Assembly: GCA_903857495.1 (NCBI GenBank)
Contig: CAIOFF010000029.1
Span: 1 to 64,000 of the forward strand
DNA length: 64,000 bases
Source: an uncultured Holophagaceae bacterium
GTDB lineage: Bacteria; Acidobacteriota; Holophagae; Holophagales; Holophagaceae
Reading direction: 5' to 3'
The notes under the pieces were generated by a model. It searched no databases. It was given only the letters and a program-made list of their open reading frames with translations, and was not told where the DNA came from. Below, one piece after another: positions 48,620-64,000 of this stretch (within the stretch, counting starts at the first letter, position 1; every line of letters begins with the position of its first letter). The position numbers and the translations under genes were made by a program.

Positions 48620-50851
48620 ATGAAACCAAGGTGGTGGCTGGTTCTGCTGGTGCTGTTGGCAGGGTTCGGGGTGCTGGGACTGGGGGGGCGGCAGATCGCC
48701 CAGAATGCCCCGCCGATCCCGCAGCGGGTGCTGGCCGAGGACGGCACCCTGCTGGTGGGACCCGGTCAGATCCTCGCGGGCCAGGTCAGCTACCTGGGCC
48801 ACGGCGGCCAGCACATCGGCTCCATCCTGGGGCACGGCTCCTACCTGGCGCCGGACTGGACCGCGAAGGCCCTGCATCAGTGGGCGGCGGGCACCCTGGC
48901 CGGTGTGCAGGCCAAGGGCGTTTCCCCGGCGGAAGCCAAGGCCCAGACCATATCTTTATTTCAGAATAATAAGTATGAAATAGCCACCGACACCCTGAAG
49001 CTGGATGCCACCCAGGCCCAGGCCTACCGCCAGACCCGCGCCGAGCTGGCCCGCATCGCCGTGGAAGGGGACAAGGAAGCCGCCATTCCCGCCCACTGGA
49101 TTCCCACCCAGGCCGAGGGCGAGCGGGTGGCCGACTTCTGGCTGTGGACCGCCTGGACTGCCGCCGCGCGGCGGCCGGGTTCCGCGGCCAGCTACACGCA
49201 GAACTGGCCCCACGAGCCCCTGGTGGGCAACAGCATCACGCCCATCAGCCACCTCTGGAGCATCCTCTCGATCATCCTGCTGATCCTGGGCGTGGGCCTC
49301 ATGGTCTGGCACCACGCCAGCCAGCCCGCCGAGGAGTTCCCCGCCCCCCAGGCCATCCCGGCGGCGCCCGCCACCCCCAGCCAGCGCTGGTCGGCGGTCT
49401 ACTTTGCCGTGGCCATGGCCCTGTTCCTGGTACAGATCGGCATGGGTGTCCTGACCGCCCATGACGCCGTGGAAGGCAACGCGCTCTATGGCGTGGACCT
49501 GTCCCGCATCCTGCCCTACGCGGCCTCGCGCACGTGGCACCTGCAGCTGGCCGTCTTCTGGATCGCCACCTGCTGGCTGGCCACGGGCCTCTACCTGGGT
49601 CCCAAGCTCAGCGCCAAGGAGCCCAAGGGCCAGTGGATCGGCGTGGCGGGCCTGCTGGTGGCCCTGGTGGTGGTCGTCGTCGGAGCCCTCGCGGGCGCCC
49701 ACCAGGCCATCCTGGGCAAGCTGTCCGGCTCCTTCCTGCTGGGGCATCAGGGTTATGAGTATGTGGAGCTGGGCCGCCTCTGGCAGATCCTGCTCACGGT
49801 GGGCATGGTTTTCTGGTTGGTGATGGTGGTGCGAGCCCTGCTGCCCGCCCTGCGCGGCGAAAAGGGCCGCGTGGGCCTGCTCAAGCTCTTCGTGCTGTCC
49901 GCCGTTGCCATCCCGCTGTTCTACTCCGCGGGCTTCATGTACACCCGCGAGACGCACATCGCCATGGCCGAATACTGGCGCTGGTGGGTGGTCCATCTCT
50001 GGGTGGAGGGCTTCTTCGAGGTCTTCGCCACCGTGGCCATCGCGCTGCTCACCACCCGCATGGGCCTGCTGCGCGAGAGCACTGCGCTGCGCGCCGTGGG
50101 CCTTTCCGTAGGCCTCTTCCTCGGCAGCGGCATCATCGGCACCTTCCACCACCTCTACTACACGGGCTCCCCGGCCTCCATCGCGGCCCTGGGCTCCGTG
50201 TTCAGCGCCCTGGAGATCGTGCCTCTCACCATCGTGGGTTTCGAGATCGCCCAGAGCCTCAAGGCCGGCCGCGCCCTGGGCAGCGGCTACGAGTGGCCCT
50301 TCCGGTTCTTCGCGGCCGTCTGCTTCTGGAACCTGGTGGGCGCCGGCGTCTTCGGCATGCTCATCAACCCGCCCTCGATCCTCTACTTCAGCCAGGGGCT
50401 CAACACTACGCCCATCCACAGCCACGCCGCGCTCTTCGGGGTCTACGGCTTCCTGGCCATCTCTCTCATGCTGTTCGCCCTGCGCGGCATGACCCCGGAC
50501 CGGGCCTGGGACGAGAAGTGGCTGCGCTACGGCTTCTGGGGCCTGAACCTGGGCCTGGTCCTCATGTTGGTGTTTTCGCTGATCCCCAGTGGCCTCTACC
50601 AGTTCGTGCAGAGCCTCGAGCATGGCACCTGGTATGCCCGCAGCGCGGCCGTGGTGCAGAGCCCCCTCATGCGCACCTTCACCTGGCTGCGCATGCCCGG
50701 CGATGTGCTCTTCGGCCTCGGCGCCCTCTCGGTGATCCTCTTCACCTTCAAGGCCGTCATCGGCGCCTGGGGCTGGCGGACCGCGGAAGAGACCGCACCC
50801 GCCAAGCCTGAAGCCGAGGGCGCCCCCGCCTTCGCCGCCGGGAGAGATTGA
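48620..50851 (+). CDS. norZ: Quinol-dependent nitric oxide reductase (qNor)
   Basis: This single-subunit membrane enzyme reduces NO to N2O with quinol electrons; 743 residues. An N-terminal transmembrane helix and periplasmic domain (about 30-220, with VLAEDGTLLVGPGQILAGQV) is fused to a 12-helix haem-copper-oxidase-like domain. That domain has His ligands in YAASRTWHLQLAVFW, GTFHHLYYTG and IHSHAALFGVYG. ATG 48620 has GGAGG five bases upstream. About 34 bases near 48950 are strikingly AT-rich although the encoded SLFQNNKYE region looks conserved. NO detoxification or denitrification is implied. Confidence 0.92.
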   Translation: MKPRWWLVLLVLLAGFGVLGLGGRQIAQNAPPIPQRVLAEDGTLLVGPGQILAGQVSYLGHGGQHIGSILGHGSYLAPDWTAKALHQWAAGTLAGVQAKGVSPAEAKAQTISLFQNNKYEIATDTLKLDATQAQAYRQTRAELARIAVEGDKEAAIPAHWIPTQAEGERVADFWLWTAWTAAARRPGSAASYTQNWPHEPLVGNSITPISHLWSILSIILLILGVGLMVWHHASQPAEEFPAPQAIPAAPATPSQRWSAVYFAVAMALFLVQIGMGVLTAHDAVEGNALYGVDLSRILPYAASRTWHLQLAVFWIATCWLATGLYLGPKLSAKEPKGQWIGVAGLLVALVVVVVGALAGAHQAILGKLSGSFLLGHQGYEYVELGRLWQILLTVGMVFWLVMVVRALLPALRGEKGRVGLLKLFVLSAVAIPLFYSAGFMYTRETHIAMAEYWRWWVVHLWVEGFFEVFATVAIALLTTRMGLLRESTALRAVGLSVGLFLGSGIIGTFHHLYYTGSPASIAALGSVFSALEIVPLTIVGFEIAQSLKAGRALGSGYEWPFRFFAAVCFWNLVGAGVFGMLINPPSILYFSQGLNTTPIHSHAALFGVYGFLAISLMLFALRGMTPDRAWDEKWLRYGFWGLNLGLVLMLVFSLIPSGLYQFVQSLEHGTWYARSAAVVQSPLMRTFTWLRMPGDVLFGLGALSVILFTFKAVIGAWGWRTAEETAPAKPEAEGAPAFAAGRD

Positions 50852-50883
50852 TCGGGGCTCGACTGCCAGAGTGAAGTTATTTT

Positions 50884-50953
50884 CACCACGAAGACAACGA
50901 AGACCACGAAGCACGGAACCGGCTTGGATGAGCGGGCCTTCTTCGTGGTCTTC
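50884..50953. repeat. CACGAAG-type dispersed inverted repeat
   Basis: GAAGACCACGAAG (50899-50911) and CTTCGTGGTCTTC (50941-50953) are perfect 13-bp inverted arms around 29 bases. The left side extends as further CACGAAGA-like units from 50884. It belongs with the element at 39.85-40.09 kb and resembles the CACCAAG family in build. Confidence 0.75.
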
Positions 50954-51007
50954 CTGTTGCCCCTGTCGTTTCCCCTCCAAGTCCCTGCGGTCTCCTGCGG
51001 GTTAAGA

Positions 51008-51051
51008 GTGCCTAACAAAACCCCGCGGCTCCGTGGGGTTTTGTTAGGCAC
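51008..51051. terminator. Perfect 17-bp hairpin, bidirectional terminator-like
   Basis: The arm GTGCCTAACAAAACCCC is repeated in inverse at 51035-51051 around the ten-base loop GCGGCTCCGT. T-rich DNA inside the stem gives a U-run in either direction. It lies between the nor gene and the acyltransferase gene, and its core is shared with the gltD hairpin at 26.94 kb. Confidence 0.65.
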
Positions 51052-51075
51052 GATAAGCTCGAAGCTGGAGCGGGC

Positions 51076-52254
51076 ATGACCTTGGATTCAGAGGACAGAA
51101 ACCCTGGGGCCAGAGCCGAAGCCCTGCCGAGGGACCCCGGCATCGACCTGCTGCGGGGGCTCTCCATCGTGCTGGTGGTCATGCACCACGTGGGTCTCCG
51201 CATCCCCCTCAAGGCGGGGGTGCTGGCCACCTTCCTGCCGCGCTGGTGCCTGGATGCCCTGATCTACAACGGCACCGAGGCCGTGTTCATCTTCTTCGTG
51301 ATCTCGGGCTTCCTCATCGCCTCCCACAGCCTGGTGCGCTGGGGCAGCCTGGCGGCCCTGGATGTCCGGGCCTTCTACACCCGCCGCGCCGCCCGCATCC
51401 TGCCCTCCCTCCTGATCCTGGTGGCGGTGCTGAGCCTGCTGCACCTGGTCGGGGCGCGGGACTACACCATCACCAGGGCCTCCCAGTCGCTGGCCCGGGC
51501 CATCCTGGCGGCCCTGGGCCTGCACCTGAACTGGTACGAGGGCCTGACGGGCTACCTGCCGGGCAACTGGGATGTGCTGTGGTCCCTCTCCATCGAGGAG
51601 CTCTTCTACCTGGGCTTCCCTCTGCTGTGCCTGGGCCTGCGCCGCCGGCGCGTCCTGGTGCCGGCGCTCCTGCTGCTGGCGCTGTCGCTGCCCCTCACCC
51701 GGGCGGCCCTGGCGGCCAATCCCATCTGGCAGGAGAAGGCCACCCTGCCGGGCATGGCCGCCATCGCCACGGGGGTTCTGGGGGCCCTGCTGGCTGCCGC
51801 GGTTCGCCCAAGGTGGACCTGGCTGCCGGGCCTCCTGCGGATGCTGGGCTGGGCGGGCGTGGTGGCCGTGCTCTGCTTCGAGAGCTGGCTCTGGCCCCGC
51901 CTGGGCAACGGGAGCCTGCTGCTCCTGACCGGTGGCACGCTGCTGCTCCTGCTGGGTTTTCACTGGCGCCCGCCGGTCCAGCGCCCCGGGGTGGCCTTCG
52001 GCTGGTTGCGTTCTTTCGGGCGGCTCAGCTACGAGGTCTACCTCACCCACATGTTCATCATCTGGCCCGTGGTCCGGGCCTACAAAGCCTACGGTGGCGG
52101 GCCGCGCTGGGGCATCCTCTGGTACCTGCCGGCCCTGGCTGCGTCCTGGGGGCTCGGCTGGCTGGTGGCGAGATTCCTCTCAACCCCCTGTGAGCAGTGT
52201 CTCCGGGGGCGGCTGGGAAGCATCCAGCCACCTGTCTCAGCCGCTGTTTCTTAG
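51076..52254 (+). CDS. Acyltransferase 3 family membrane protein
   Basis: This is a 392-residue multi-pass O-acyltransferase of the OafA/YrhL type, which adds acyl groups to surface sugars or lipids. About ten hydrophobic segments are seen. Family motifs are GIDLLRGLSIVLVVMHHVG with its His, FFVISGFLIASHSL, FYTRRAARILPSLL and WDVLWSLSIEELFYLGFPLL. GGAG precedes the ATG. Its last 18 bases overlap the converging ppc gene. The substrate cannot be inferred. Confidence 0.85.
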   Translation: MTLDSEDRNPGARAEALPRDPGIDLLRGLSIVLVVMHHVGLRIPLKAGVLATFLPRWCLDALIYNGTEAVFIFFVISGFLIASHSLVRWGSLAALDVRAFYTRRAARILPSLLILVAVLSLLHLVGARDYTITRASQSLARAILAALGLHLNWYEGLTGYLPGNWDVLWSLSIEELFYLGFPLLCLGLRRRRVLVPALLLLALSLPLTRAALAANPIWQEKATLPGMAAIATGVLGALLAAAVRPRWTWLPGLLRMLGWAGVVAVLCFESWLWPRLGNGSLLLLTGGTLLLLLGFHWRPPVQRPGVAFGWLRSFGRLSYEVYLTHMFIIWPVVRAYKAYGGGPRWGILWYLPALAASWGLGWLVARFLSTPCEQCLRGRLGSIQPPVSAAVS

Positions 52255-54987
52255 CCCGGCGGCAAGCCCGTTGATGGAGAGCAGGATGCCGCGCTCGGTG
52301 CGTCCATCGAGGTCGCCGGCGCGGTAGCGGCTCAGCAGCTCCACCTGGAGGTGGTTCAGGGGATCCAGGTAGGGGAAGCGGTGCTGGATGGAGCGCCGCA
52401 GGGAGGGGTTGTCCTCCAGCAGTCCCGCCTGCCCCGTGATGTCCCGCAGGGCCCCGAGGGTGGCCGCGCACTCCTGCTCGATGCGCCCGAAGATGCGGGT
52501 CCGCAGGGCCGCGTCGCCCACCAGGTCCGCGTAGCGGCTGGCGATGGCCAGGTCCACCTTGGCCAGCACCATGTCCAGGTTGGAGAGGAGGCTGCGGAAG
52601 GGCGCCCAGTGGGAGTACATCTCCTGCAGCAGCGCCAGGCCCGCCTCGCCCCGCTCCGCGCGGAAGGTCCGCACCGCCGAGCCGAAGCCGTACCAGCCGG
52701 GCAGCATGAGGCGGCACTGGCCCCAGCTGAAGACCCAGGGGATGGCCCGCAGGTCCGTGATGGCCCGGCCGCCCTTGCGACTGGCGGGCCGGGAACCGAT
52801 GTTCAGGCGCGATATCTCCGAGATGGGCGTGGACTCCCAGAAGTAGCGCTCGAAGCCCTCGGTTTCGTAGACTAGGTTGCGGTAGGCCGCGCAGGCCTCC
52901 CGGGACAGGACGTCCATGGCCTCGGAGAAGCGCGGGTCCTCGCCATCGCCGGGGCCCTTGGGCAGGCTGGCCTCCAGGGTGGCGGCCACCAGCACCTCCA
53001 GGTTGCGGCGGCCCACGGCGGGGTGGCCGTACTTGGCGGCGATGACCTCACCCTGCTCCGTGAGGCGGATCTGGCCGTTCACGGCGCCCGCAGGCTGGGC
53101 CAGGATGGCCTCGTAGGCCGGGCCGCCGCCGCGGCCCACAGAGCCGCCGCGGCCGTGGAAGAGGCGCAGCCGAACACCGTGGCGCCGGGCCACAGCCACG
53201 AGATCCTGCTCGGCCTTGTAGAGCTCCCAGCGGGAAGTGACGAAGCCGCCGTCCTTGTTGCTGTCCGAGTAGCCCAGCATCACCTCCTGCTCGCCGCCCC
53301 GGCTGTCCAGCAGGCGCCGGTAGAGGGGCAGGGCCAGCAGGCGGTCCATGATGGCGCCGCAGCTGCGCAGGTCCTCGATGGTCTCGAACAGCGGGATCAG
53401 GTTGATGTCCAGGCGGCCTTCGAGGGGCCGGAGCAGGCCCGCCTCCCGCAGCAGCACCGCGGCCTCCAGCAGGTCCGAGACGCCCTCGGTGTGGCTGATG
53501 ATGCAGTTGGGCAGGGCCGCCAGGCCCAGGCGCTGCTGGGCCCGGGCCACGGTGCGGAAGAGGCCCAGCTCCGCCTGGGCCTCCTCGCTGTAGGCCAGGA
53601 AGGGTGAGGCCAGGGGGCGCGGGCTCGCCAGCTCCGCCGCCAGCAGGGCGATGCGCGCCTCCTCGTCGAGAGCCAGGTAGCCGGTGCCCGGCTGCAGGGT
53701 CTCCAGCAGCTCCGCCACCACCCGGCCGTGGACCTCCGAGGTCTGGCGCAGGTCCAGGGGCACCAGGTGGAAGCCGAAGACGGCCACGGCGCGGCGCAGG
53801 TCCCGCAGGCGGCCCCGGGCCAGGCGGCGGCCCCCGTGGGCCCGCAGGGAGCGGTCCAGCATGTCGAGATCCGCCTTCAGCTCCGCCGCCGAAGCGTAGG
53901 GCGCCACGACCTCTGCCGCGGCCGGGCCCGCATCGGGCAGCAGCTTCCGCCGGGTGGCCTCGAGTCGCGCGGAGATGAGGGACTGGGCCAGCCGGTAGGC
54001 CTCGTCGGCCCGCTGGGGGGAGCTGCTCGGGGACTTCGCCGCCAGGTTCAGCACCTCCTGGGAGGCCTTGGACACCTGGAGGCTGAGGGAGAGCTCGGAG
54101 CCGAGGCTCTCCAGCTCCCGCAGCAGGAAGTCGAGGATGGTCTGGGACTGCATCCGCAACGCGCGCTCCAGCACCTCGGCGGTGACGAAGGGGTTGCCGT
54201 CCCGGTCCCCGCCGATCCAGCTGCCCAGCTGCAGGAAGGGCGGCAGCTCCGTGTCGCCCCAGGCGGGATCCAGGGCCAGGCGATCCTCCAGGTCCGCGTA
54301 GAGGGCCGGGACGCCCCGCAGGAAGGTGCGCTCGAAGTAGGAGAGGGCGCTGGTCACCTCGTCTGTGACCGCGGGCCGGTGGGCGCGCAGCATGCGAGTC
54401 TGCCAGAGCAGCAGCACCTGCCGCTGCAGGTGCTCATCGCGCAGGGCGGTCTCCCGGGGCGTGGAGGTGGTGCGGTCGCGCTCCTCCAGCAGGTGGGCGA
54501 TCTCCATCTGCGCGTTCAGGATGCTCTTGCGCTGCACCTCCGTGGGGTGGGCCGTGAGCACCGGGCGCACCAGGGCGCAGTCGAAGAAGGCCTTCAGCCC
54601 CGCCGCGTCCAGGCCCGCCTCGGCGCCCTGCGCCAGGGCATGGTCCAGGGAGCTGGGCCGGGGGGTCGTGTCGTCGGAGCGGTGCGCCCGGGAGCGGCGG
54701 ATGTGGTGCTGGTCCTCGGCCAGGTTGGCCAGCTGGGAGAAGTAGCTGAAGGCCCGGATGACCAGGATGGCCCGGCCCGGCGTGAGGGCCTGGAGGATGC
54801 CCTTCAGCTCCTTGACGGCCGTGGGGTCGCCGCCCCGGCGGAAGCGCACCGCGCAGCGCCGGATCTGCTCGATGAGCTCGAAGGTGGCCTCGCCCTCCTG
54901 CTCCCGCACCGTGTCGCCCAGCAGCCGCCCCAGCAGCCGGATGTCCTCCATCAGCGGCAGGTCCTTGTCAGGCAGCGCGGCATTCAT
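52237..54987 (-). CDS. ppc: Phosphoenolpyruvate carboxylase
   Basis: This enzyme carboxylates PEP to oxaloacetate, replenishing the TCA cycle. It has 916 residues, full length. Catalytic segments are TAHPTEVQRKS (His), GGDRDGNPFV, GYSDSNKDGG (Lys), FHGRGGSVGRGGGP (Arg loop), and the C-terminal DPLNHLQVELL with the final NSG. With korAB and gltBD it feeds the oxaloacetate/2-oxoglutarate/glutamate branch. Its stop overlaps the acyltransferase 3' end by 18 bases. Confidence 0.95.
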   Translation of the reverse strand: MNAALPDKDLPLMEDIRLLGRLLGDTVREQEGEATFELIEQIRRCAVRFRRGGDPTAVKELKGILQALTPGRAILVIRAFSYFSQLANLAEDQHHIRRSRAHRSDDTTPRPSSLDHALAQGAEAGLDAAGLKAFFDCALVRPVLTAHPTEVQRKSILNAQMEIAHLLEERDRTTSTPRETALRDEHLQRQVLLLWQTRMLRAHRPAVTDEVTSALSYFERTFLRGVPALYADLEDRLALDPAWGDTELPPFLQLGSWIGGDRDGNPFVTAEVLERALRMQSQTILDFLLRELESLGSELSLSLQVSKASQEVLNLAAKSPSSSPQRADEAYRLAQSLISARLEATRRKLLPDAGPAAAEVVAPYASAAELKADLDMLDRSLRAHGGRRLARGRLRDLRRAVAVFGFHLVPLDLRQTSEVHGRVVAELLETLQPGTGYLALDEEARIALLAAELASPRPLASPFLAYSEEAQAELGLFRTVARAQQRLGLAALPNCIISHTEGVSDLLEAAVLLREAGLLRPLEGRLDINLIPLFETIEDLRSCGAIMDRLLALPLYRRLLDSRGGEQEVMLGYSDSNKDGGFVTSRWELYKAEQDLVAVARRHGVRLRLFHGRGGSVGRGGGPAYEAILAQPAGAVNGQIRLTEQGEVIAAKYGHPAVGRRNLEVLVAATLEASLPKGPGDGEDPRFSEAMDVLSREACAAYRNLVYETEGFERYFWESTPISEISRLNIGSRPASRKGGRAITDLRAIPWVFSWGQCRLMLPGWYGFGSAVRTFRAERGEAGLALLQEMYSHWAPFRSLLSNLDMVLAKVDLAIASRYADLVGDAALRTRIFGRIEQECAATLGALRDITGQAGLLEDNPSLRRSIQHRFPYLDPLNHLQVELLSRYRAGDLDGRTERGILLSINGLAAGLRNSG

Positions 54988-55102
54988 GGGGCGATCCTTC
55001 CAGGCAGGGCGGGGGGTCCAGCCAGCCTACCGGAAGCGGGGGGAGATGCCACCCGGGGACTTGGAGGCGGGGGGCGGAATCTGAGCCGCCACTTGACCGG
55101 GT

Positions 55103-56191
55103 CTACTCCGCATTTGGCTCTTGCTGGTGCCCGGTCAGGATCGCGGTCAGCGCGACGTTGATGTAGTAGTTTCCCCGGCCCCGCTTTTGTTTCAACAGGA
55201 ACCCGTCCTCAGCGAGCTTGTCCAGGTAGCTCGTCGCGGTTGTGCGCGACACCTTCAGGTCCTGCTCCACATAGTCGATCCGAGTGTAGGGGTGCATGAA
55301 CAGGTTGTTGATGAGGTCCTGGCTGTAGAACCTGTGCTTGGCCCGGATGCGGTGCTTGTAGTCTTGAAGAGCCTGCTTGATGGCGCCGATGGTCTGGATG
55401 GTCTGGGCGGCGGTGTGCTCCACGACGTCGAGCATGTAGAAGACCCAGTTCTCCCAGGCGTCCTCCTCCCGCACGGCCTGAAGCAGCCGGTAATACTCAG
55501 CCTTGGTCTGGACGATCCGGCTGCTCAGATACAGCACCGGAATGTCCAGCAGGTCCTCTTTCACGAGGTAGAGGACATTCAGGAGGCGCCCGGTGCGTCC
55601 GTTGCCGTCATAGAACGGATGGATGCTCTCGAACTGATGGTGGATCAGGCTCATCTTGATGAGCGGGTCCGCCTCGAAGGGAACCTCCCCGTTGATGAAC
55701 TTCTCCAGGTTACCCATGAGCCGCTGCACTTCCTGCTGATCCTGAGGCGGCATGTAGACCACTTCACCCGCGCTGTTTTTCAGCGCAGTGCCGGGTAGCT
55801 TCCGGAAACCGGCGCGGTTCTGCTCCAGCACTTCCTGGACCTGAAGGATGTGATTCAGCGTCAGCAGCCCGGTCTCTTCCACCAGGGCGAATCCCCGGCG
55901 CAGAGCCTGGCGGTAGCGGAGGACCTCCTTCGTGGCCGCATCGATCGACTCCTGGCTCGCGTCATCCCCCTTGAACAACTCGTCGTGGGTGGTGACGATG
56001 TTCTCGATCTCAGAGCTGTCTTTCGCCTCCTGCAAGCCGAGGGTGTTGATCAGGATGGCCTGATTTGGGATCGCAGCGGCCACGCCCTTGAGCTCAGCCA
56101 GGCAGCGGCTGGCGCTCGCCAGCTTCTTCAGAATCCTCGGCGTGTCGAAGCGAGCCGGGTCCAGGTGTTCCAGTGAATTGAGCGTGGTCAC
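55103..56191 (-). CDS. Fic family protein with inhibitory helix and winged helix
   Basis: This is a predicted AMP-transferase or related nucleotidyl transferase, 362 residues. An N-terminal domain carries the class II inhibitory motif SSEIEN (residues 59-64), so the enzyme is self-restrained. The Fic core is HPFYDGNGRTGR (191-202), complete. A C-terminal winged-helix region (about 300-345, IDYVEQDLKVSRTTATSYLDKLAEDGFL) suggests DNA binding. The start is GTG. GC content is clearly lower than in the neighbours. Two near-identical palindromic units lie just upstream, so autoregulation is likely. Confidence 0.88.
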   Translation of the reverse strand: MTTLNSLEHLDPARFDTPRILKKLASASRCLAELKGVAAAIPNQAILINTLGLQEAKDSSEIENIVTTHDELFKGDDASQESIDAATKEVLRYRQALRRGFALVEETGLLTLNHILQVQEVLEQNRAGFRKLPGTALKNSAGEVVYMPPQDQQEVQRLMGNLEKFINGEVPFEADPLIKMSLIHHQFESIHPFYDGNGRTGRLLNVLYLVKEDLLDIPVLYLSSRIVQTKAEYYRLLQAVREEDAWENWVFYMLDVVEHTAAQTIQTIGAIKQALQDYKHRIRAKHRFYSQDLINNLFMHPYTRIDYVEQDLKVSRTTATSYLDKLAEDGFLLKQKRGRGNYYINVALTAILTGHQQEPNAE

Positions 56192-56214
56192 GGCAGATCC
56201 CAGGGAAGAACATA

Positions 56215-56290
56215 CCTAGAAAACGCTCATTTTCTACGCATGTCCAGTGGAACATGCCTAGAATTTTCGATTTTCTATACATGTTTCACC
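56215..56290. promoter_or_regulatory. Duplicated palindromic operator upstream of fic
   Basis: Two tandem units of about 35 bases, offset by 42, share CCTAGAA, TTTTCTA and CATGT. Each contains a TAGAAAA/TTTTCTA-type dyad, and a GCATGT/ACATGC dyad links them (56238-56257). The DNA is AT-rich against a GC-rich background. The units lie 24-100 bases before the fic start codon, where a repressor would block transcription. Confidence 0.65.
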
Positions 56291-56595
56291 GGCAGGAACG
56301 GACCCCGGGGTATTCCTGGGCATATCCCAGGCTGACTCAGTCGGGAGTGACTGACGGGCCCCCCGAACCGCCCTGGCCATCGCCCGGTCCCTGCCTGCCC
56401 GGGGATGGCATCCGCCGCGGATGGGTCGCGGTGGGCAGCGCCTTCGGTGTCTGGATACTGGCTCTGCTGAATAGATGCATACAGGTGGGCTGACACCTTC
56501 TCTTTCAACGCAAGAAGACCCGCTCAGAACGAAGGCCTTTCAAAGACCTTCCCATCAGAGCAGCCAGCGAGACCCCCGGACACGGCTTCTTCAAG
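56291..56595. other. Gap after the fic operator, no gene seen
   Basis: No convincing coding region is found. A 79-codon open frame on the plus strand reads as low-complexity Pro/Gly text and starts inside the operator. The only structure is an imperfect dyad GAAGGCCTTT / AAAGACCTTC at 56531-56551, downstream of the antitoxin gene, which may be its terminator. Confidence 0.5.
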
Positions 56596-56958
56596 CTACA
56601 CCCTGGCTTTGGCCGTCTTCTGACCTGCTTTGAAGGTGGACACCAGATCATGGGTAACCTCACGCAGTAGTTCGGACAGACTCCGTCCCTGAGCCTCAGC
56701 GAGGGCCTCCAGGGCTTCCTTCTCCTGTTTGTCCGTCCGGAAGGTCACCAGCTCGGTTTCCACCCTCGGCGTGGTCTTGCTGGGGCGTCCCATCCGCACG
56801 ATGGGGCGTCCTGCGGGAGCCCCCTTCATCTCCTTCGCCAACGCCTCAGCCTCAGCCGCACGCTCCGCAAACGGCTTCCTGGCATGCCCCTTCGGAAGCT
56901 CGCCAGCCTCCTGGATCACTTCCTCCCAATGGAGTCCCTTCTTGGTCACCTTGCTCAT
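56596..56958 (-). CDS. Putative antitoxin, ribbon-helix-helix type
   Basis: A 120-residue protein whose C-terminal half has the strand-helix-helix pattern of CopG/BrnA-like DNA-binding antitoxins (VETELVTFRTDKQEKEALEA then LAEAQGRSLSELLREV). The N-terminal half is charged and probably flexible, as expected for a toxin-binding region. Its ATG overlaps the stop of the preceding small gene by four bases (ATGA), so toxin comes first and antitoxin second, the brnTA order. It probably represses the shared promoter together with the toxin. Confidence 0.7.
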   Translation of the reverse strand: MSKVTKKGLHWEEVIQEAGELPKGHARKPFAERAAEAEALAKEMKGAPAGRPIVRMGRPSKTTPRVETELVTFRTDKQEKEALEALAEAQGRSLSELLREVTHDLVSTFKAGQKTAKARV

Positions 56959-57233
56959 GGCTTCCTGCCTTTCTTCAGATCCCCGGTGCTGTAGCGACAC
57001 CCAGTCACCGGCTCGAATGTCCATTCCTTGCGATCCACCAGTTCCACGATCAGCCGGTAGCGCTTCCCGTTGAGGGTCCCCTGAAGCATCACGCGTCCCA
57101 GGCGGCCACTCACCATCGAGAGGTCCTTGGCGTCCATCAAGGCATCCAGGGCCTCTCGTGGGACGCGATGCTTGAGGAGGATGTATTCCTCCGCAACCGG
57201 GGTCCATCTCAGCCTAGGTTTCTTGGGGTCCAT
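56955..57233 (-). CDS. Putative toxin, BrnT/RelE-like
   Basis: A 92-residue basic protein. The layout is an N-terminal helix with EEYILLKHRVPREALDALMD, then strands LGRVMLQGTLNGKRYRLIVE and WTFEPVTGCRYSTGDLKK. This resembles the BrnT/DUF4258 family of small ribonuclease toxins, although family identity is not certain. GGGGGG precedes the ATG. Together with the following ribbon-helix-helix gene it forms a type II toxin-antitoxin pair. Alternative: an unrelated small protein. Confidence 0.62.
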   Translation of the reverse strand: MDPKKPRLRWTPVAEEYILLKHRVPREALDALMDAKDLSMVSGRLGRVMLQGTLNGKRYRLIVELVDRKEWTFEPVTGCRYSTGDLKKGRKP

Positions 57234-57252
57234 CAATCCCCCCCAGGAGCTT

Positions 57253-57265
57253 AGTGTAATACACT
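57253..57265. promoter_or_regulatory. 13-bp perfect dyad over the toxin-antitoxin promoter
   Basis: AGTGTA-A-TACACT is a perfect palindrome 20 bases upstream of the toxin gene. On the minus strand it covers a TACACT -10 candidate with TTGCGT 16 bases further upstream. Toxin-antitoxin operons are usually autoregulated through such an operator, so this probably binds the ribbon-helix-helix protein. Confidence 0.55.
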
Positions 57266-57499
57266 TTAGCGGCCACGCAAGGGCTGAACCTTCGATCTTC
57301 TCATCTCTGGAGGGTTCCACAGCGCCGTGGACACCGAATGGAGCGCAGGGAAGTCTGAACAGCCTTCAGGCAGGGTTCCCTGCGCCGCGCTGTCTGCGGC
57401 GGAGGGCTGGGCTGATGGCTGCGGGCTGAGTCGATCCGGAACGCACGCAGGCTCGGACCCCGGACCGGGACGCGGGGATGGGTCCAGCAGGCAAGGAAA
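57266..57499. other. Spacer between RHS cassette and toxin-antitoxin promoter
   Basis: I see no gene, repeat or promoter here apart from the -35 candidate near its start. Open frames in it have no start with a ribosome site and no recognisable protein. Confidence 0.45.
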
Positions 57500-57519
57500 A
57501 GCCCCGGAGGTCCGGGGCT
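57500..57519 (-). terminator. Rho-independent terminator of the RHS cassette
   Basis: AGCCCCGGA-gg-TCCGGGGCT is a perfect nine-base stem, and on the minus strand it is followed by TTTTCC. It lies 15 bases after the stop of the small membrane protein gene. Confidence 0.75.
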
Positions 57520-57534
57520 CTTCGTGCTTGCGAG

Positions 57535-57756
57535 CTACACATGTAATGTCAGTATCCTCAGTCCCACGGCAACAAACACAATCGAAATCAGGAACGGTAA
57601 CCCCAACATTACAGAAACAAATACCCAGAACTGGACAGGGTTTCCTCTCTTTAATATGGGTGCGCCCCAAGCGTAAATTTTTCCATTTTTATAGACGACC
57701 ACAAAAAGAGGGATCAACAGTGCGCACCCAAATAGACCAAGCATCAATATCGACAC
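57535..57756 (-). CDS. Small two-helix membrane protein, possible immunity protein
   Basis: A 73-residue protein with two hydrophobic segments (MLGLFGCALLIPLFVVVY and VSVMLGLPFLISIVFVAVGL) joined by a short basic loop (KNGKIYAWGAPILKRG). It follows the RHS tip gene by 16 bases and has GAGGG before its GTG start. Small genes directly after RHS tips usually encode immunity proteins; a membrane location would fit a membrane-acting toxin. The low GC content matches the RHS tip, not the chromosome. Confidence 0.6.
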   Translation of the reverse strand: MSILMLGLFGCALLIPLFVVVYKNGKIYAWGAPILKRGNPVQFWVFVSVMLGLPFLISIVFVAVGLRILTLHV

Positions 57757-57772
57757 AGCAAGCCCTCAGTTT

Positions 57773-59131
57773 CTAAAGTCCAGCTTCCTTTGAGCAATGT
57801 TCATGGAGTGCCAGGGCTTTTGCCCCAATAGTTACTGCCGAGGACACCGCTGAAACCGCAGCCAACGCCTTGTTCAGTCCTGGCACTCCGCGAATCCAGG
57901 TGCTTGCAGTTACAGTTCTGCCAGCCCAACCCAGGGCTCTACCTGCGCCGTTAATCTGGCGAATCTGATTAACAAAGCCCGCAGTTCCTGCCCCGAGGCT
58001 CATCGCCCCAATACCATTATCCATTGCCGAATTGGTAGACAGGTCATTCAACTGTGCCGTGCCAATAGCAATCCCTGTTAGCCCAGTCGGATCAAGAACA
58101 GCAGAGGCACCATTGGCGAGTCCAAGCATGAAGTCCTTGGTTATTCCGGTGCTCGCGAAGTTCGCTTGAATACAGTCCCAATACTTCGATGTTTTATCGG
58201 GTTTTGGAGTTTGCGGCGCCACCCCACCTGCGTAAAATTCAACTCTAAGAATATTTATATTTATATTCCGAGAGCTTGCCATTAATAATTGAAGTAGCAT
58301 GGTGCTCGGACTAATCTTGGGGTCTGGCGGCCAGTCCCAGTCATTATAAATAATGGGGCCACCCCCGGTAGACCCGCCCGTGCAACGTTGGCCATTGGGC
58401 ATCCCGTCGATAGTGACCAGACCACCAACACAGTCAACTCGGTTCTCCGCCATCCCACTCGGATCAGTCCCCATGAACGGACTCCCTCCGACATAGGCCC
58501 TCTGGTTCCACTGGCCGGGATCGGCGCCTTGATCACTGTTTACGAAGGCGTGCCAGGCGGGGCTGTAGTAGCGTCCCCGCATGTAGATCAGGCCGGAGGC
58601 ATCGGTCTGGAGGTGGCCGGTGTAGCCGGTGGTGGGAAGGTAGCTCCCAGTCTGGGAGAGCAATTCACCATAGGGGCCATAGGCCTGGGTGGCTTCGGCG
58701 GTGCCGAGGAGGCTGCTGGCCCAGGTGCCCGCCCCCTTGGTGATGAGGCGCGGGCTGCCCAGGTGGTCGCTGTGCAGCTCGTGAACCCCATTCGCGTCGA
58801 TCTCGGCGACGGCCTGGGAGCCCAGGTAGATCACGTCTCTCCGCCAGGCCAGGCCACTCTGGCCCACGATTTCCTGGGCTACGCCGTCCACACCCGTGGC
58901 CCAGGCCCCCGGATCCGCCGAGCTGGACGCAGATTGAGGCCAGGCCCCTTCGAACCCCTCACTGAGCACCACGCCATGGCCCGATCCAGTCACCACGAGA
59001 TCATCATAGACCGTTCCCGTATGAGCCGGGACCAGCGCGGAATTTGCAACGCTCCACTGGTCCGAGTAGAGAACAACTCTCGACCTGATTCCCCCCCCGA
59101 ACTCGGTCAGGTGGCGCCGGGAGCCGAAAAT
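57773..59131 (-). pseudogene. 5'-truncated RHS repeat protein with variable C-terminal tip
   Basis: This is the C-terminal part of an RHS/polymorphic-toxin protein. The frame is open from 59131 but has no start until GTG at 58996; upstream codons still read as coding text (SDQWSVANSALVPAHTGTVY). Visible are the RHS core GLIYMRGRYYSPAWHAF and GSPFMGTDPSGM, which normally precede the toxin tip. A 230-residue, lower-GC tip of unknown type follows. The thousands of N-terminal residues of a complete RHS protein are missing, since ispH starts 130 bases away. It is probably a displaced tip cassette. Confidence 0.75.
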
Positions 59132-59263
59132 CTATCCGGCTCGGAGCAGTTCCTCCTGGCAGCCGGGTACGGGACTTCGCGAGAACCCTGGGTCTGATGC
59201 GTCCCCGCCCCAGACCCGCTATGATGATTACCTGACCAATCCGGTCGGGATTTCGGGGCCACC

Positions 59264-60988
59264 ATGAAAGTGATCGTCGCCAAGACCGCGGGCTTCTGCT
59301 GGGGCGTGAAGCGCGCCATGGACGCGGTGCTGGAGGCCTCGGTGCGCAACGATGGGCGTGCGGTGCAGACGCTGGGGCCGCTCATCCACAATCCCCAGGC
59401 GCTGGACCTCATCGGCAAGCGGGGCGTAGCGGTGGCAGAGACCCCGGAGACGGTGCGGGACGGCACGGTGGTGATCCGCGCCCACGGCATCCCCATCCAG
59501 GACCTGCGCGGCCTCAAGGAGCGCCAGGCCCGGGGCGAGCTGAAGATCGTCAACGCCACCTGCCCGGAGGTGGCCAAGGTCCACCATAAGATCAAGAAGT
59601 GGAGCCCCAAGGGCTACTTCACCGTGATCCTGGGCACCCACGGCCATGCGGAGAGCGTGGCCCACCGCAGCTTCGCCGAGAGCGGCAGCGCCATCGTCGC
59701 GAACATGGCCGAGGCCGAGACCCTCACGGACGAGCAGGTGAAGAAGGTGCTGGTGGTGGCCCAGACCACCTTCACGGTGAAGGACTACCACGAGATCACG
59801 GACTACCTCCGGACCCGCGCCGGGGATGCGGTCTTCGAGAACACCATCTGCGAGGACACCTGGACCCGCCAGGAAGAGGCCGAGCGCCTGGCCCGCACGG
59901 TGGACGCCGTCATCGTCGTCGGCGGCAAGGCCTCCAGCAACACCAAGCACCTGGCCGAGCTGGCGCGGAAGCACGGCAAGCCCGTGCAGTACCTCGAGAC
60001 CGCCGCAGAGCTGGACCTCACGGCCTTCACGGGCAGCGAAACTGTCGGTGTGCTGGCCGGCGCCTCCACGCCCACCTGGCTGGTGGACGAGGTGGTGGAC
60101 GTGCTGGAGCAGCTCGGGGACGGTCCCAGCCGCTGGCGCAACTTTCTCCAGGCGGCCTTCGGGTCTTCGTCCCTCATGGCCATCGGTGCGGGCCTCATGA
60201 CCCTCGGGGCGCACAAGTGGCTGGGCCTGCCCCTGGGCTGGCGCTATCCGGCGCTCACGGCCAGCTATGTGATCGCCATGTACCTGCTCAGTCCGTTTCT
60301 GGATCCCCTCGGGCTGGGCGCCAAGGGCCCGGCCCGGGCCCGGTTCCTGGAGCGCAACCAGCGGGTCCTGCAGGCTTCCGCCCTGGCGGCCCTGGGCCTC
60401 ACGCTGGTGCTGGCGGCCACCCTCGGGAGCAAGGTGCTGCTGGTGGTCATTGCGGCCTGCCTGGTGGGCGCCCTCTACAAGCACCGGTTCCCGGTGGGCG
60501 GCCGGGTCTTCAGCCTGCGGAGCATCCCGGGCTCCAAGGATCTGGTGGTGTCCCTGGCCCTGGCCAGCGTGGCGATCCTCCTGCCCGTGTGGCAGGAGGG
60601 CCGGGCCTGGGACCTGCGGACCTTCGCGGCGGCCTTCCTGGTGGGGGTCCTGGCCTTCGTCCGCACGGTGATCTACGAGATCCGCGACATGCAGAACGAC
60701 CAGATCATCGGCAAGGAGACCCTGCCGATCTTCCTGGGCAAGGCCGCCACCAAGGTCATCCTGCTGGTGCTGCTGGGCGCCCTGCTGGCGGGCACCCTCT
60801 GGCTCACCTTCCAGAATCGCAACCAGGGCCACCCCCTGGCCGTGGCGCTGGTGCTGGTGCTGTGCTCCGCCTATCCGGTGCTCTACCTGTGGCTGTTCCA
60901 CGAGCGCTTCACCACGGGCCGGACCCGCTTCGAGTTGAGCGTGGACTTCAGCTTCTACCTGGTGGGGCTGCTGGCCATCGTCTGCTGA
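59264..60988 (+). CDS. ispH: Fused IspH (HMBPP reductase) - UbiA prenyltransferase
   Basis: This bifunctional-looking protein has 574 residues. Residues 1-283 are IspH/LytB, the last MEP-pathway enzyme, with the three cluster-binding cysteines Cys12 (GFCWGV), Cys100 (NATCPEV) and Cys196 (ENTICEDTW), and the HGHAES motif. Residues 300-574 are a multi-pass membrane domain like UbiA prenyltransferases. The second Asp motif IRDMQNDQIIGKETLPIF (about 473-490) is present; the first Asp motif looks degenerate (SPFLDPLGLG). IspH makes IPP and DMAPP, and UbiA enzymes use prenyl diphosphates, so the fusion could bring both to the membrane. No stop or frameshift separates the parts. Confidence 0.85.
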   Translation: MKVIVAKTAGFCWGVKRAMDAVLEASVRNDGRAVQTLGPLIHNPQALDLIGKRGVAVAETPETVRDGTVVIRAHGIPIQDLRGLKERQARGELKIVNATCPEVAKVHHKIKKWSPKGYFTVILGTHGHAESVAHRSFAESGSAIVANMAEAETLTDEQVKKVLVVAQTTFTVKDYHEITDYLRTRAGDAVFENTICEDTWTRQEEAERLARTVDAVIVVGGKASSNTKHLAELARKHGKPVQYLETAAELDLTAFTGSETVGVLAGASTPTWLVDEVVDVLEQLGDGPSRWRNFLQAAFGSSSLMAIGAGLMTLGAHKWLGLPLGWRYPALTASYVIAMYLLSPFLDPLGLGAKGPARARFLERNQRVLQASALAALGLTLVLAATLGSKVLLVVIAACLVGALYKHRFPVGGRVFSLRSIPGSKDLVVSLALASVAILLPVWQEGRAWDLRTFAAAFLVGVLAFVRTVIYEIRDMQNDQIIGKETLPIFLGKAATKVILLVLLGALLAGTLWLTFQNRNQGHPLAVALVLVLCSAYPVLYLWLFHERFTTGRTRFELSVDFSFYLVGLLAIVC

Positions 60989-61012
60989 GTCTTTTCCCGC
61001 CGCAGGCGGCCC

Positions 61013-61049
61013 ATGAGAATCAGGGCGCCAGAGGCGCCCTGATTCTCAT
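61013..61049. terminator. Perfect 17-bp hairpin after ispH-ubiA
   Basis: ATGAGAATCAGGGCGCC pairs perfectly with GGCGCCCTGATTCTCAT around the loop AGA. It begins 25 bases after the fusion gene stops. The U-tract is short, so termination may be weak; it could also stabilise the mRNA 3' end. Confidence 0.65.
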
Positions 61050-61071
61050 TCTGTGAAAAGATGAAAAGCCT

Positions 61072-61896
61072 ATGCGCAACTGGGTCCTCATCACGGGTTG
61101 TTCGACGGGCATCGGGCGGGCCCTGGTGCCGCTCTGCCGCACGGCGGGTTGGGGCGTGGTCGCCACGGCCCGGCGGACCGAGGCCCTCGCGGACCTGCCC
61201 CCGGGGGAGGATCTGCGTGTGCTGGCCCTGGACGTGACGGACGCGGCCAGCATCGCGGCGGCGGTGGCGGCCTGCGCGGACCTGCGCCTGAAGGCCCTGG
61301 TGAACAACGCGGGCTACGGCCAGGTCGGTCCCCTGGAGCTGCTGCGGGCCGAGGAGCTGCGGGCCCAGTTCGAGACGAATGTGATCGGGCTGCAGATGGT
61401 CACCAATGCCTTCCTGCCGCTGCTGCGGCGGGAGCATGGTGCCCGCATCCTGCAGGTCGCTTCCATGCTGGGGCGCCTGTCCATTCCCCTGGCGGGGGCC
61501 TACAACGCCTCCAAGCACGCGGTGGTGGCCCTGGCTGAGAGCCTGCGCCTGGAGGTGGGCCGCGAGGTGGCGGTGGTGCTCGTGGAGCCCGGCGCGATTC
61601 GCACGGCCTTCCGGGAGACCATGGGCCAGCTGTGGGGGGACCTGCCGGAGCGGGCCCGGGGAACGCGCTGGGAGAACATTCTGGCCCGCCACATGGCCGT
61701 GCGGCAGGAGCGGGCCGACCGCTACGCCATGGACGCGGAGCCCTGTGCCCGGCGCATCGTCAACGCGCTGAACGCCGCCGTCCCGCCCCGGCGTGTGGTG
61801 ATCGGCCACGACGCCCGGTGGATCGGCAAGCTCAAGGCCCTGCTGCCTGCCGCCGGGTGGGAGTGGTTCCTGCGCCGGGCCTATCGGCTGAAGTGA
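61072..61896 (+). CDS. Short-chain dehydrogenase/reductase
   Basis: This is an NAD(P)-dependent oxidoreductase of the classical SDR family, 274 residues. The cofactor loop is TGCSTGIGRAL, the structural motif is NNAGYG, and the catalytic Ser-Tyr-Lys set lies in VASMLGRLSIPLAGAYNASK. The C-terminal extension (about 195-274) resembles retinol- or steroid-type SDRs. The substrate is unknown. It ends one base from the converging Cache-protein gene. Confidence 0.88.
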   Translation: MRNWVLITGCSTGIGRALVPLCRTAGWGVVATARRTEALADLPPGEDLRVLALDVTDAASIAAAVAACADLRLKALVNNAGYGQVGPLELLRAEELRAQFETNVIGLQMVTNAFLPLLRREHGARILQVASMLGRLSIPLAGAYNASKHAVVALAESLRLEVGREVAVVLVEPGAIRTAFRETMGQLWGDLPERARGTRWENILARHMAVRQERADRYAMDAEPCARRIVNALNAAVPPRRVVIGHDARWIGKLKALLPAAGWEWFLRRAYRLK

Positions 61897-61897
61897 T

Positions 61898-62353
61898 CTA
61901 CTTGTAGATGCCGCAGCCCACGACGAGGCCGCTGTCGGCGAGGCAGAAGGAGGTCTTCTGCTCGATCTTGCGGGTGTCGGGGTTCATGCGCTTGTAGTCG
62001 GACCAGCCGCCGCCCTTCTTCTGGCCCACAGCCAGGTTCTCCTTGATGTACTGCTTGCCGTCCGGATCCTTCACGTTGAGCCGGTTCACGCCCAGCAGGT
62101 TGGCCTCGGCCCCGTGGGCCACCACTACCCCGTTCAGGTCGTAGACGAAGAGATAGAGCGGGTTGCCGGGCTTGGCGTGGAAGCGGCCCGAGCCCTTCTG
62201 GACCTCCGCGATGAAGGCCTCCTTGCCGTTGGATTTCATGAAGGCGATGCCCTCCTTCACCAGGGCCTCGGCCTTGGCCCGCTCGGCGGGCTGGGCCCCC
62301 AGGGGCAGCGCCAGGATCAGGGCAAGGGCGGGGATGGCGAGGCGTTGACGCAT
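61898..62353 (-). CDS. Exported single-Cache-domain protein
   Basis: A 151-residue protein with a signal peptide (MRQRLAIPALALILALPLGA) and a Cache-like ligand domain: LYLFVYDLNGVVVAHGAEANLLGVN and KDPDGKQYIKEN, ending in a Cys-containing strand. Free-standing periplasmic Cache domains bind small organic acids and can signal to membrane receptors. GGAGGA is seven bases upstream of the ATG. Confidence 0.83.
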   Translation of the reverse strand: MRQRLAIPALALILALPLGAQPAERAKAEALVKEGIAFMKSNGKEAFIAEVQKGSGRFHAKPGNPLYLFVYDLNGVVVAHGAEANLLGVNRLNVKDPDGKQYIKENLAVGQKKGGGWSDYKRMNPDTRKIEQKTSFCLADSGLVVGCGIYK

Positions 62354-62439
62354 AGAGTCCTCCAGGGCAGAGCGGTTCGTTTCCCTATCGACGGCAGGCC
62401 CGGGAACCTGAATCCCGGCGGCCCTGCCAGACTGGGGGG

Positions 62440-64000
62440 ATGCCTGAAGACCGCCTCTACCTCATCGACACCTTCGCGTTCATATTTCGCGCCTACTTCG
62501 CCAATCCAAGGCTGAAGAACGGGGCGGCCTACACCTTCACGCGGCTGGTGCTGCAGCTGCTGGAGAAGCACAAGCCGACGCACATCGCGTGTGTGTTCGA
62601 CACGCCGGAGCCCACCTTCCGGCACGTGATCTATCCGGAGTACAAGGCCAACCGGGCGGAGATGCCCGAGGACCTGCGCCCCCAGATCCCCATGATCCGG
62701 CAGCTGGTGGAGGCCCTCTCGATCCCCATCGTTGAGCTGCACGGCTACGAGGCTGATGACGTGCTGGCGACCCTGGCCAGGGAGTCCGCGGCCCAGGGCT
62801 TGCCCTCGGTCATCGTGAGCCCCGACAAGGACCTGCTGCAGCTGGTGGACGACGAGCTCCACATCCAGGTGCTCAACACCAAGGAAGGGGAGATCTGGCA
62901 TGACCGCGCCAGCGTCAAGGAGCGCATGGGCGTCTGGCCCGAGCAGGTGGTGGACTTCCTGAGCCTGGTGGGGGATGCCTCGGACAACGTGAAGGGGGTG
63001 CCGGGCATCGGCGAGAAGGGCGCGGCCCTGCTGCTGGAGCAGCACGGCACCCTGGAGGCGGTCATCGCCGCCAAGGCCGACCTCAAGCCCAAGCAGCGGG
63101 AGGGCCTCGACCGGGCCGCGGAGTGGCTCGACCTCACGAAGCGCCTGGTCACCGTGGTGACGGACCTGCAGCTGCCCCTGCATCCCGCGGACTTGGCCTA
63201 TGCCGGCGTTGACGAGGCCAAGGCCCGGGAGACCTTCAAGGCCCTGGGCTTCCAGGGGCTCACCAAGGAGTTCACCCAGACCGCCAAGGAATCGGGCAAT
63301 GCCCGCACCTACCGGGCCGCGGCCAGCCTTGAGGACCTGGAAGCGGCCGTCGCCGCCTGCCGGGCCGCCGGCCGCTTCGGCCTCGACACCGAGACCACCA
63401 GCATCGATCCCACCCGGGGCCATATCGTGGGTCTGAGCTTGGCCTGGGCGCCCAATGCGGGCCTCTACGTGCCCCTGGCGCACCTGAAGCCCGCCACCGC
63501 CGATACGGAAGGTGCCCTGCCAGGCCTGCTGCCGGACAGCGGCCTGCCGGACGGCCTGCTGGACCTCCGGGGCGAGGCCGGGGCCTTCTTCGCGGAGCTG
63601 GCGCCCCACCTGGATCACCGGAACCTGCCCTTCGAGGCCGTGCGGCGCGTGCTGCGGCCGCTGCTGGCGGACCCGGCCGTGGGCAAGTGCGGCCAGAACC
63701 TGAAGTACGACCTGCAGGTGCTGGCCCGCCACGGCCTGCCGGTGGCGGGGCTGGCGGATGACAGCATGGTGCTGAGCTTCCTGCTCGAGAGCGGCGTGCG
63801 CCACAACCTGGACGACCTGTCCACGCGGCACCTGGACGTGAAGCCCATCGCCTTCGAGGAGATCGTCGGCAAGGGGAAGGGCCAGAAGCGCTTCGACGAG
63901 GCCGAGTTCGAGTCGGCGGTGCAGTACGCCGCCGAGGACGCGGACCTGGCCCTGCAGCTCTGCGACAAGCTGCAGGTGATGCTCGCGGATGACCGGCTGC
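62440..64000 (+). CDS. polA: DNA polymerase I, N-terminal part (cut by window end)
   Basis: This is the replication and repair polymerase; only the first 520 residues are in the window. The 5'-3' exonuclease domain (1-280) shows LIDTFAFIFRAYFA, EADDVLATLA, SPDKDLLQLV, GDASDNVKGVPGIGEKGA. The 3'-5' proofreading domain (about 300-500) has LDTETTS, NLKYDLQVL, and YAAEDADLALQL, so its acidic residues look intact. GGGGGG directly before the ATG may serve as ribosome site, but CAGACT six bases upstream also resembles the leaderless pattern. Confidence 0.93.
   Translation, partial: MPEDRLYLIDTFAFIFRAYFANPRLKNGAAYTFTRLVLQLLEKHKPTHIACVFDTPEPTFRHVIYPEYKANRAEMPEDLRPQIPMIRQLVEALSIPIVELHGYEADDVLATLARESAAQGLPSVIVSPDKDLLQLVDDELHIQVLNTKEGEIWHDRASVKERMGVWPEQVVDFLSLVGDASDNVKGVPGIGEKGAALLLEQHGTLEAVIAAKADLKPKQREGLDRAAEWLDLTKRLVTVVTDLQLPLHPADLAYAGVDEAKARETFKALGFQGLTKEFTQTAKESGNARTYRAAASLEDLEAAVAACRAAGRFGLDTETTSIDPTRGHIVGLSLAWAPNAGLYVPLAHLKPATADTEGALPGLLPDSGLPDGLLDLRGEAGAFFAELAPHLDHRNLPFEAVRRVLRPLLADPAVGKCGQNLKYDLQVLARHGLPVAGLADDSMVLSFLLESGVRHNLDDLSTRHLDVKPIAFEEIVGKGKGQKRFDEAEFESAVQYAAEDADLALQLCDKLQVMLADDRL

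Follow-up and report, generated by a model that had tools for sequence, protein, structure and literature searches.

An IspH–UbiA fusion in Geothrix and other bacteria: a sole, intact HMBPP reductase domain joined to a UbiA-fold membrane domain with an eroded first Asp motif

The window (the whole stretch of DNA analysed, 64,000 nucleotides from an uncultured Holophagaceae bacterium of the genus Geothrix, an inhabitant of soil and sediment) carries a single gene in which IspH is joined to a UbiA-type membrane domain. Judging from the sequences, we give about even credence to the view that this UbiA fold would bind a prenyl diphosphate, would be catalytically weak or inactive in Geothrix, and would tether the sole IspH of the cell to the membrane. 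The novelty implied in the preliminary description does not hold for the architecture, because Rao et al. (Chem Sci 2015, PMC4746011) had already described 47 IspH–UbiA 'Rosetta stone' fusions, reported only from sulfate-reducing anaerobes. The finding is a taxonomically wider set of members and a new motif analysis; new here are the Acidobacteriota and other groups as hosts, the orphan status of the UbiA domain, and the erosion of its first Asp motif (D1) across the family. The gene and its parts are the following:

59264..60988, + strand: complete IspH–UbiA fusion gene, 574 codons plus stop (ATG at 59264, stop codon at 60986–60988)
59264..60112, + strand: IspH (LytB, HMBPP reductase) domain, residues 1–283, from Pfam, TIGR00216 and fold match
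59297..59299, + strand: Cys12, [4Fe-4S] ligand, invariant (86/86)
59561..59563, + strand: Cys100, [4Fe-4S] ligand, invariant (86/86)
59651..59653, + strand: Glu130, invariant (86/86), from alignment to IspH structures
59849..59851, + strand: Cys196, [4Fe-4S] ligand, invariant (86/86)
60131..60985, + strand: UbiA-fold membrane domain, residues ~290–574, from Pfam UbiA over its cut-off, the AlphaFold model and the 4od5 match
60290..60316, + strand: degenerate D1 at the end of TM2, S343 P F L D347 P L G L351, from column states in 86 homologues
60476..60538, + strand: conserved TM4–TM5 loop, Y405 ... IPGSK425 (Y405, P422 and K425 each 85/86)
60686..60727, + strand: second Asp motif (D2) and following loop, D475MQND479QIIGKETLP488 (D479 85/86, G483 86/86, D475 77/86)
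61013..61049, no strand: perfect 17-nt inverted repeat with a 3-nt loop, with the fusion gene on one side and a gene for a short-chain dehydrogenase on the other

The single 574-codon frame given in the preliminary description was exact in coordinates, frame and length, and the start (MKVIVA) and the open frame are conserved across Geothrix. A long antisense frame (59228–60901, − strand) is most simply an effect of the high G+C content. The inverted repeat is a possible terminator, though no T-run comes after it, and no Rfam match was found within positions 50000–64000 of the window. The − strand of the window also carries a 407-aa frame (57773–58996) whose sequence (YGPYGELLSQTG...GRYYSP) recalls the tail of an RHS repeat protein, although Pfam gave no match for it. 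Close to this frame, on the same strand, is a NikA/CopG-like ribbon-helix-helix frame (56596–57207), and a Fic family protein of the SoFic type, probably an AMP-transferase, is encoded at 55103–56191 (−; Fic_N, Fic, SoFic-like_C).

A match to the protein was obtained in 57 of the 60 genomes searched. Within the genus, 34 of 36 further genomes matched, with a fused frame wherever it was complete, 70–98% identity and no stop between the domains; the exceptions were frames broken off at a contig end or fragmented by poor assembly, and two incomplete genomes gave no match. The observation that would have spoken against a fusion, namely two separate genes in close relatives, was looked for and not made. 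When a profile of the UbiA domain only, seeded with fused proteins and with two short D2-region patterns, was run against 84,980 species genomes, it yielded 151 stretches that were confirmed. In every one of the best 80 of these 151 loci, IspH is encoded in frame with the UbiA domain; in L066 and L113 the gene is truncated by the end of the contig. They came from Holophagaceae, other Acidobacteriota, Nitrospinota, records labelled Nitrospirae, Desulfobacterota, Deltaproteobacteria, Zixiibacteriota, Zymogenus and Glassbacteria, and the named Holophagaceae among them were Geothrix campi, G. fuzhouensis, G. oryzisoli, G. limicola, G. rubra, G. fermentans, G. terrae and G. paludis.

No close stand-alone relative of the UbiA half was found; in the profile search, distant unfused relatives could be missed because of the seeding with fused proteins and D2 patterns. 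One genome (G257) encodes a distant 417-aa relative of the UbiA half (61.9 bits) and has its own unfused IspH. Among 297 Acidobacteriota genomes, IspH was present in 276, and 36 matched the fused UbiA domain strongly, in a frame of ~570–650 aa; in the rest, where a frame length was listed, IspH was mostly a stand-alone protein of ~280–400 codons. Since the same two-domain frame recurs in nearly every Geothrix genome and the best 80 UbiA relatives are all joined to IspH, the fusion noticed in the preliminary description is genuine. An artefact of annotation or assembly, or a frameshift, is ruled out for practical purposes by the conservation of this frame in dozens of independent genomes, named isolates included; nothing was found in its favour, and its probability is vanishingly small.

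Trees of the IspH and UbiA halves of 80 fused proteins gave a distance correlation of r = 0.96, and 21 of the 27 strongly supported IspH splits recurred in the UbiA tree, with five strong pairs in conflict. The fused IspHs separated from five unfused Acidobacteriota IspHs with a support of 0.96, relative to what is a small outgroup. The agreement of the two trees suggests one old fusion inherited as a unit; on this phylogenetic evidence, we regard the fusion as old, conserved and of single origin. Among Geothrix pairs, dN/dS was 0.02–0.15 for the IspH half and mostly 0.07–0.34 for the UbiA half (0.60 in the most distant pair). Three other UbiA genes carried by these genomes (MqnP, CtaB and a fourth one) gave 0.08–0.28. 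Purifying selection on the fused UbiA domain is comparable to that on these three genes, indicating that the membrane domain is being maintained and is not decaying.

IspH, normally an essential enzyme, catalyses the last step of the MEP pathway. The IspH half of the window protein matched Pfam LYTB (PF02401; 2.3e-79, 266.9 bits against a cut-off of 24.5, residues 3–281) and NCBIfam TIGR00216 (ispH_lytB; 254.5 bits, cut-off 187.85), and its fold matched that of E. coli IspH (3szu) with a Z of 32.8 and 34% identity. The three cluster cysteines recognized in the preliminary description (C12, C100 and C196) are invariant in the 86 aligned homologues, and so are H42, H74, H128, E130, T169, S224, N226 and S268, which we take to be the equivalents of the E. 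coli IspH active-site residues; Glu130 corresponds to the catalytic acid, Glu126 of the E. coli enzyme. Stand-alone IspH proteins (E. coli, Aquifex) have all catalytic residues in common with the window protein but no membrane domain. The fused gene is the only IspH gene in the genome of the window and also in the other fused Acidobacteriota genomes, except for one (G308) with two fused copies; across phyla, the fusion was the only IspH hit in 11 of 12 further fused genomes, and the remaining one, from Nitrospinota, had an extra weak hit (46 bits). Hence the IspH half is intact in its active site, single-copy and assignable to the IspH (LytB) family, and it is predicted to reduce HMBPP.

The membrane half belongs to the UbiA superfamily by both fold and homology. 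Pfam UbiA matched residues 371–543 (2.7e-12, 47 bits against a cut-off of 34.2) and exceeded its cut-off in 31 of 31 members checked; the sequence noted in this UbiA-like domain in the preliminary description, IRDMQNDQIIGKETLP, corresponds to residues 473–488. An AlphaFold model of the whole protein, obtained with a 45-row alignment, had a mean pLDDT of 87.6 and a pTM of 0.78. The membrane domain has nine predicted helices, of which the last is short; in the model, D1 would lie after TM2 and D2 after TM6, and the C-terminus of IspH appears to run straight into TM1. The UbiA half matched Aeropyrum UbiA (4od5) with a Z of 19.1, an rmsd of 3.2 and 251 aligned residues, and UBIAD1 was also among the structural matches (8djk_B, Z 15.5), with soluble prenyl synthases reaching about the same Z as UBIAD1. 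Archaeal UbiA proteins (4od5, 4tq3) and DGGGP synthase (6m31) have the UbiA fold, D2 and the cap loop in common with the window protein, at 12–16% identity. The nearest curated model, PRK13591 (an uncharacterised prenyltransferase), was the best NCBIfam relative in 29 of 31 members, with a best value of 2.5e-21.

With a UbiA-family domain on the C-terminus of IspH, the window protein falls within the fusion family of Rao et al., whose proteins have the same domain order (IspH, then C-terminal UbiA) and a similar length; its UbiA profile also recovers fused Desulfobacterota loci, e.g., from Desulfobacula and Desulfosarcina. Two features reported for these proteins, neither of them defining, are different here: the hosts were sulfate reducers, whereas Geothrix lies outside the reported groups, and the proteins contained two DXXXD repeats (PMC4746011), whereas the window protein has D2 and a degenerate D1 in which only D347 is left. 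Rao et al. put forward a likely membrane location and the idea of precursor supply, and did not obtain a useful amount of full-length protein (PMC4746011); we found no enzyme assay or later functional study of an IspH–UbiA protein in the literature searched. Active IspH was shown by the same authors for an IspH–RPS1 fusion from Clostridium thermocellum (PMC4746011), where IspH again has a C-terminal partner, consisting however of soluble ribosomal protein S1 repeats instead of UbiA.

While D2 of the window protein conforms to D-x3-D (D475, D479), D1 departs from the N-x3-D-x3-D of active transferases, as the Asn is replaced by S343 and the last Asp by L351. The preliminary description had called this first motif missing, which is accurate for these two positions and not for the middle Asp, retained as D347. 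At position 343, 36 of the 86 homologues have Asn, 27 have Ser, 17 have Thr and 5 have Ala; Asp stands at position 347 in 69 of them and at position 351 in only 8. The full N-x3-D-x3-D occurs in none of the aligned members, Desulfobacterota included. Since hhalign against single paralogues gave weak alignments only, the register of D1 rests on the gap-free alignment with Asn-keeping Holophagaceae (L097, L078), a weak match to the DPPR-synthase-like protein of the same genome (L041) and the helix position in the model.

The erosion follows different courses in different lineages. D1 of the Holophagaceae is mostly S/T/A-x3-D, with D347 kept in most, and the Desulfobacterales keep the Asn and the last Asp while having lost the middle one; N-x3-D together with the D-x3-D of D2 is kept in Nitrospinota and several other lineages. 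Some diverged members (L131, L132, L029) have lost part of D2 and are still fused, and in one Acidobacteriota protein (L133:4986–6755, family f20) D475V and D479N coexist with a retained fusion and intact IspH residues. The second fused copy of G308, a Geothrix-group genome, is a diverged frame of 525 aa (L131:4095–5669) with D475 replaced by Ala, found beside a normal copy; it is either a paralogue or a contaminant contig.

UBIAD1, with the motifs N102TYYDFSKG and D236MESD (PMC9314443), itself lacks the third D1 Asp, so that a loss at position 351 alone says little. The UBIAD1 N102S mutation, on the other hand, blunts activity and lowers the affinity for GGPP (PMC9314443), and Geothrix naturally has Ser at this place. 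DGGGP synthase has a canonical motif 1 (N62, D66, D70), which the window protein does not; mutations in its motifs 1 and 3 left GGPP binding nearly unchanged (PMC9385802), implying that binding can survive the loss of catalysis. In Holophagaceae these points tip the balance towards a binder or anchor and away from a strong transferase, though they are no proof. An active prenyltransferase in the lineage of the window seems doubtful, because most Holophagaceae have exchanged the D1 Asn, other lineages show a different erosion of D1, and D2 is partly or wholly lost in some diverged lineages that are still fused.

The genome of the window contains four further UbiA genes: a strong MqnP-like one (L039), CtaB adjoining a cox2-like gene (L040), the gene for the DPPR-synthase-like protein (L041), and L042. 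The last of these (L042:1402–2295) is a UbiA-family gene without a clear family, with MenA-like best hits at ~1e-6, and is conserved in three other Geothrix genomes. A gene of the menaquinone pathway, TIGR03700, is also present, over its cut-off. With four other UbiA genes in the genome, and the known UbiA jobs covered by the MqnP-like, CtaB and DPPR-synthase-like ones, the fused domain is an orphan with no obvious vacant role. It is unlikely to be a missing MenA or MqnP, given the strong MqnP-like gene elsewhere and a score of 21.1 bits in the MenA equivalog test (TIGR00751), far under the cut-off of 102.15. A conserved operon partner was likewise rejected, since no gene neighbour common across phyla was found; in Desulfobacterota, the neighbours, judged by eye from translations, were ParA/ParB-like and other housekeeping genes.

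These observations bear on the reading of Rao et al. and of the preliminary description, by which the UbiA domain would be an active prenyltransferase for an unknown acceptor and the fusion would supply IPP and DMAPP locally. A hand-over of IPP or DMAPP to a membrane step, as proposed in 2015 (PMC4746011), is plausible, and a working enzyme would agree with the near-invariant D2 and Y/K loop, the retention of D347 in most Holophagaceae, the complete N-x3-D plus D-x3-D of Nitrospinota and several other lineages, and the PRK13591 prenyltransferase model being the best NCBIfam relative. We nonetheless rate this reading as less likely than not, considering the replaced D1 Asn in most Holophagaceae, the further erosion of D1 or D2 in other fused lineages, the lack of a conserved neighbour gene pointing to an acceptor, and the fact that the quinone and haem steps are covered by other UbiA genes.

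In the reading that we prefer, the only HMBPP reductase of the cell would be anchored by its C-terminal UbiA-fold domain on the cytoplasmic side of the inner membrane, and the IspH domain would turn HMBPP into IPP and DMAPP close to that membrane. The UbiA domain may still hold a prenyl diphosphate or a similar lipid via D2 and the Y405/K425 loop. If, in Geothrix and most Holophagaceae, the replacement of the D1 Asn by Ser, Thr or Ala has left this domain with little or no transferase activity, it would serve mainly to keep IspH in place, and perhaps also to bind a product formed further down the pathway; transferase activity may survive where N-x3-D and D-x3-D are both kept, as in Nitrospinota and others. 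Such a tether is supported by the fusion being the only IspH and present in each of the best 80 loci, by the co-inheritance of the halves, by the purifying selection on the UbiA domain, by the coverage of the known UbiA jobs, by the erosion of D1, by the loss of D2 with the fusion kept, by the effect of N102S in UBIAD1 and by the layout of the model. Against it stand the near-invariance of D2, Y405 and K425 in a domain that is not decaying, as a working transferase would show, the retention of D347 in the window protein, and the fact that UBIAD1 too does without the third D1 Asp.

Binding without catalysis could also serve control. The UbiA domain might be a sensor that binds a downstream prenyl diphosphate and adjusts the activity or stability of IspH, much as UBIAD1, a UbiA-fold GGPP sensor, is bound to HMG-CoA reductase, a reductase early in the isoprenoid pathway (PMC9314443). 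The pairing of a UbiA fold with such a reductase recalls the fusion, UBIAD1 is among the structural matches, and the erosion of D1 contrasts with the retention of D2 and the Y/K loop. However, the argument is one of analogy: UBIAD1 and HMG-CoA reductase are two separate proteins, eukaryotic and of the mevalonate pathway, so that the likeness is functional at most; HMG-CoA reductase and IspH are unrelated, and the Z of UBIAD1 is about equalled by soluble prenyl synthases. We consider a sensor role unlikely, and the same low probability applies to a pseudo-prenyltransferase controlling IspH in cis as the bacterial MEP-pathway counterpart of UBIAD1–HMG-CoA reductase control. If it were true, control in cis would have preserved a single fusion in several phyla in spite of the erosion of its catalytic motif.

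The lineage-wide, exclusive fusion of IspH to a membrane prenyl-binding fold suggests a spatial or regulatory coupling of precursor synthesis to the use of isoprenoids at the membrane. The erosion of D1, with a Ser as in the human disease mutation that weakens GGPP binding, would allow a transferase to be told apart from an anchor or sensor cheaply and directly.
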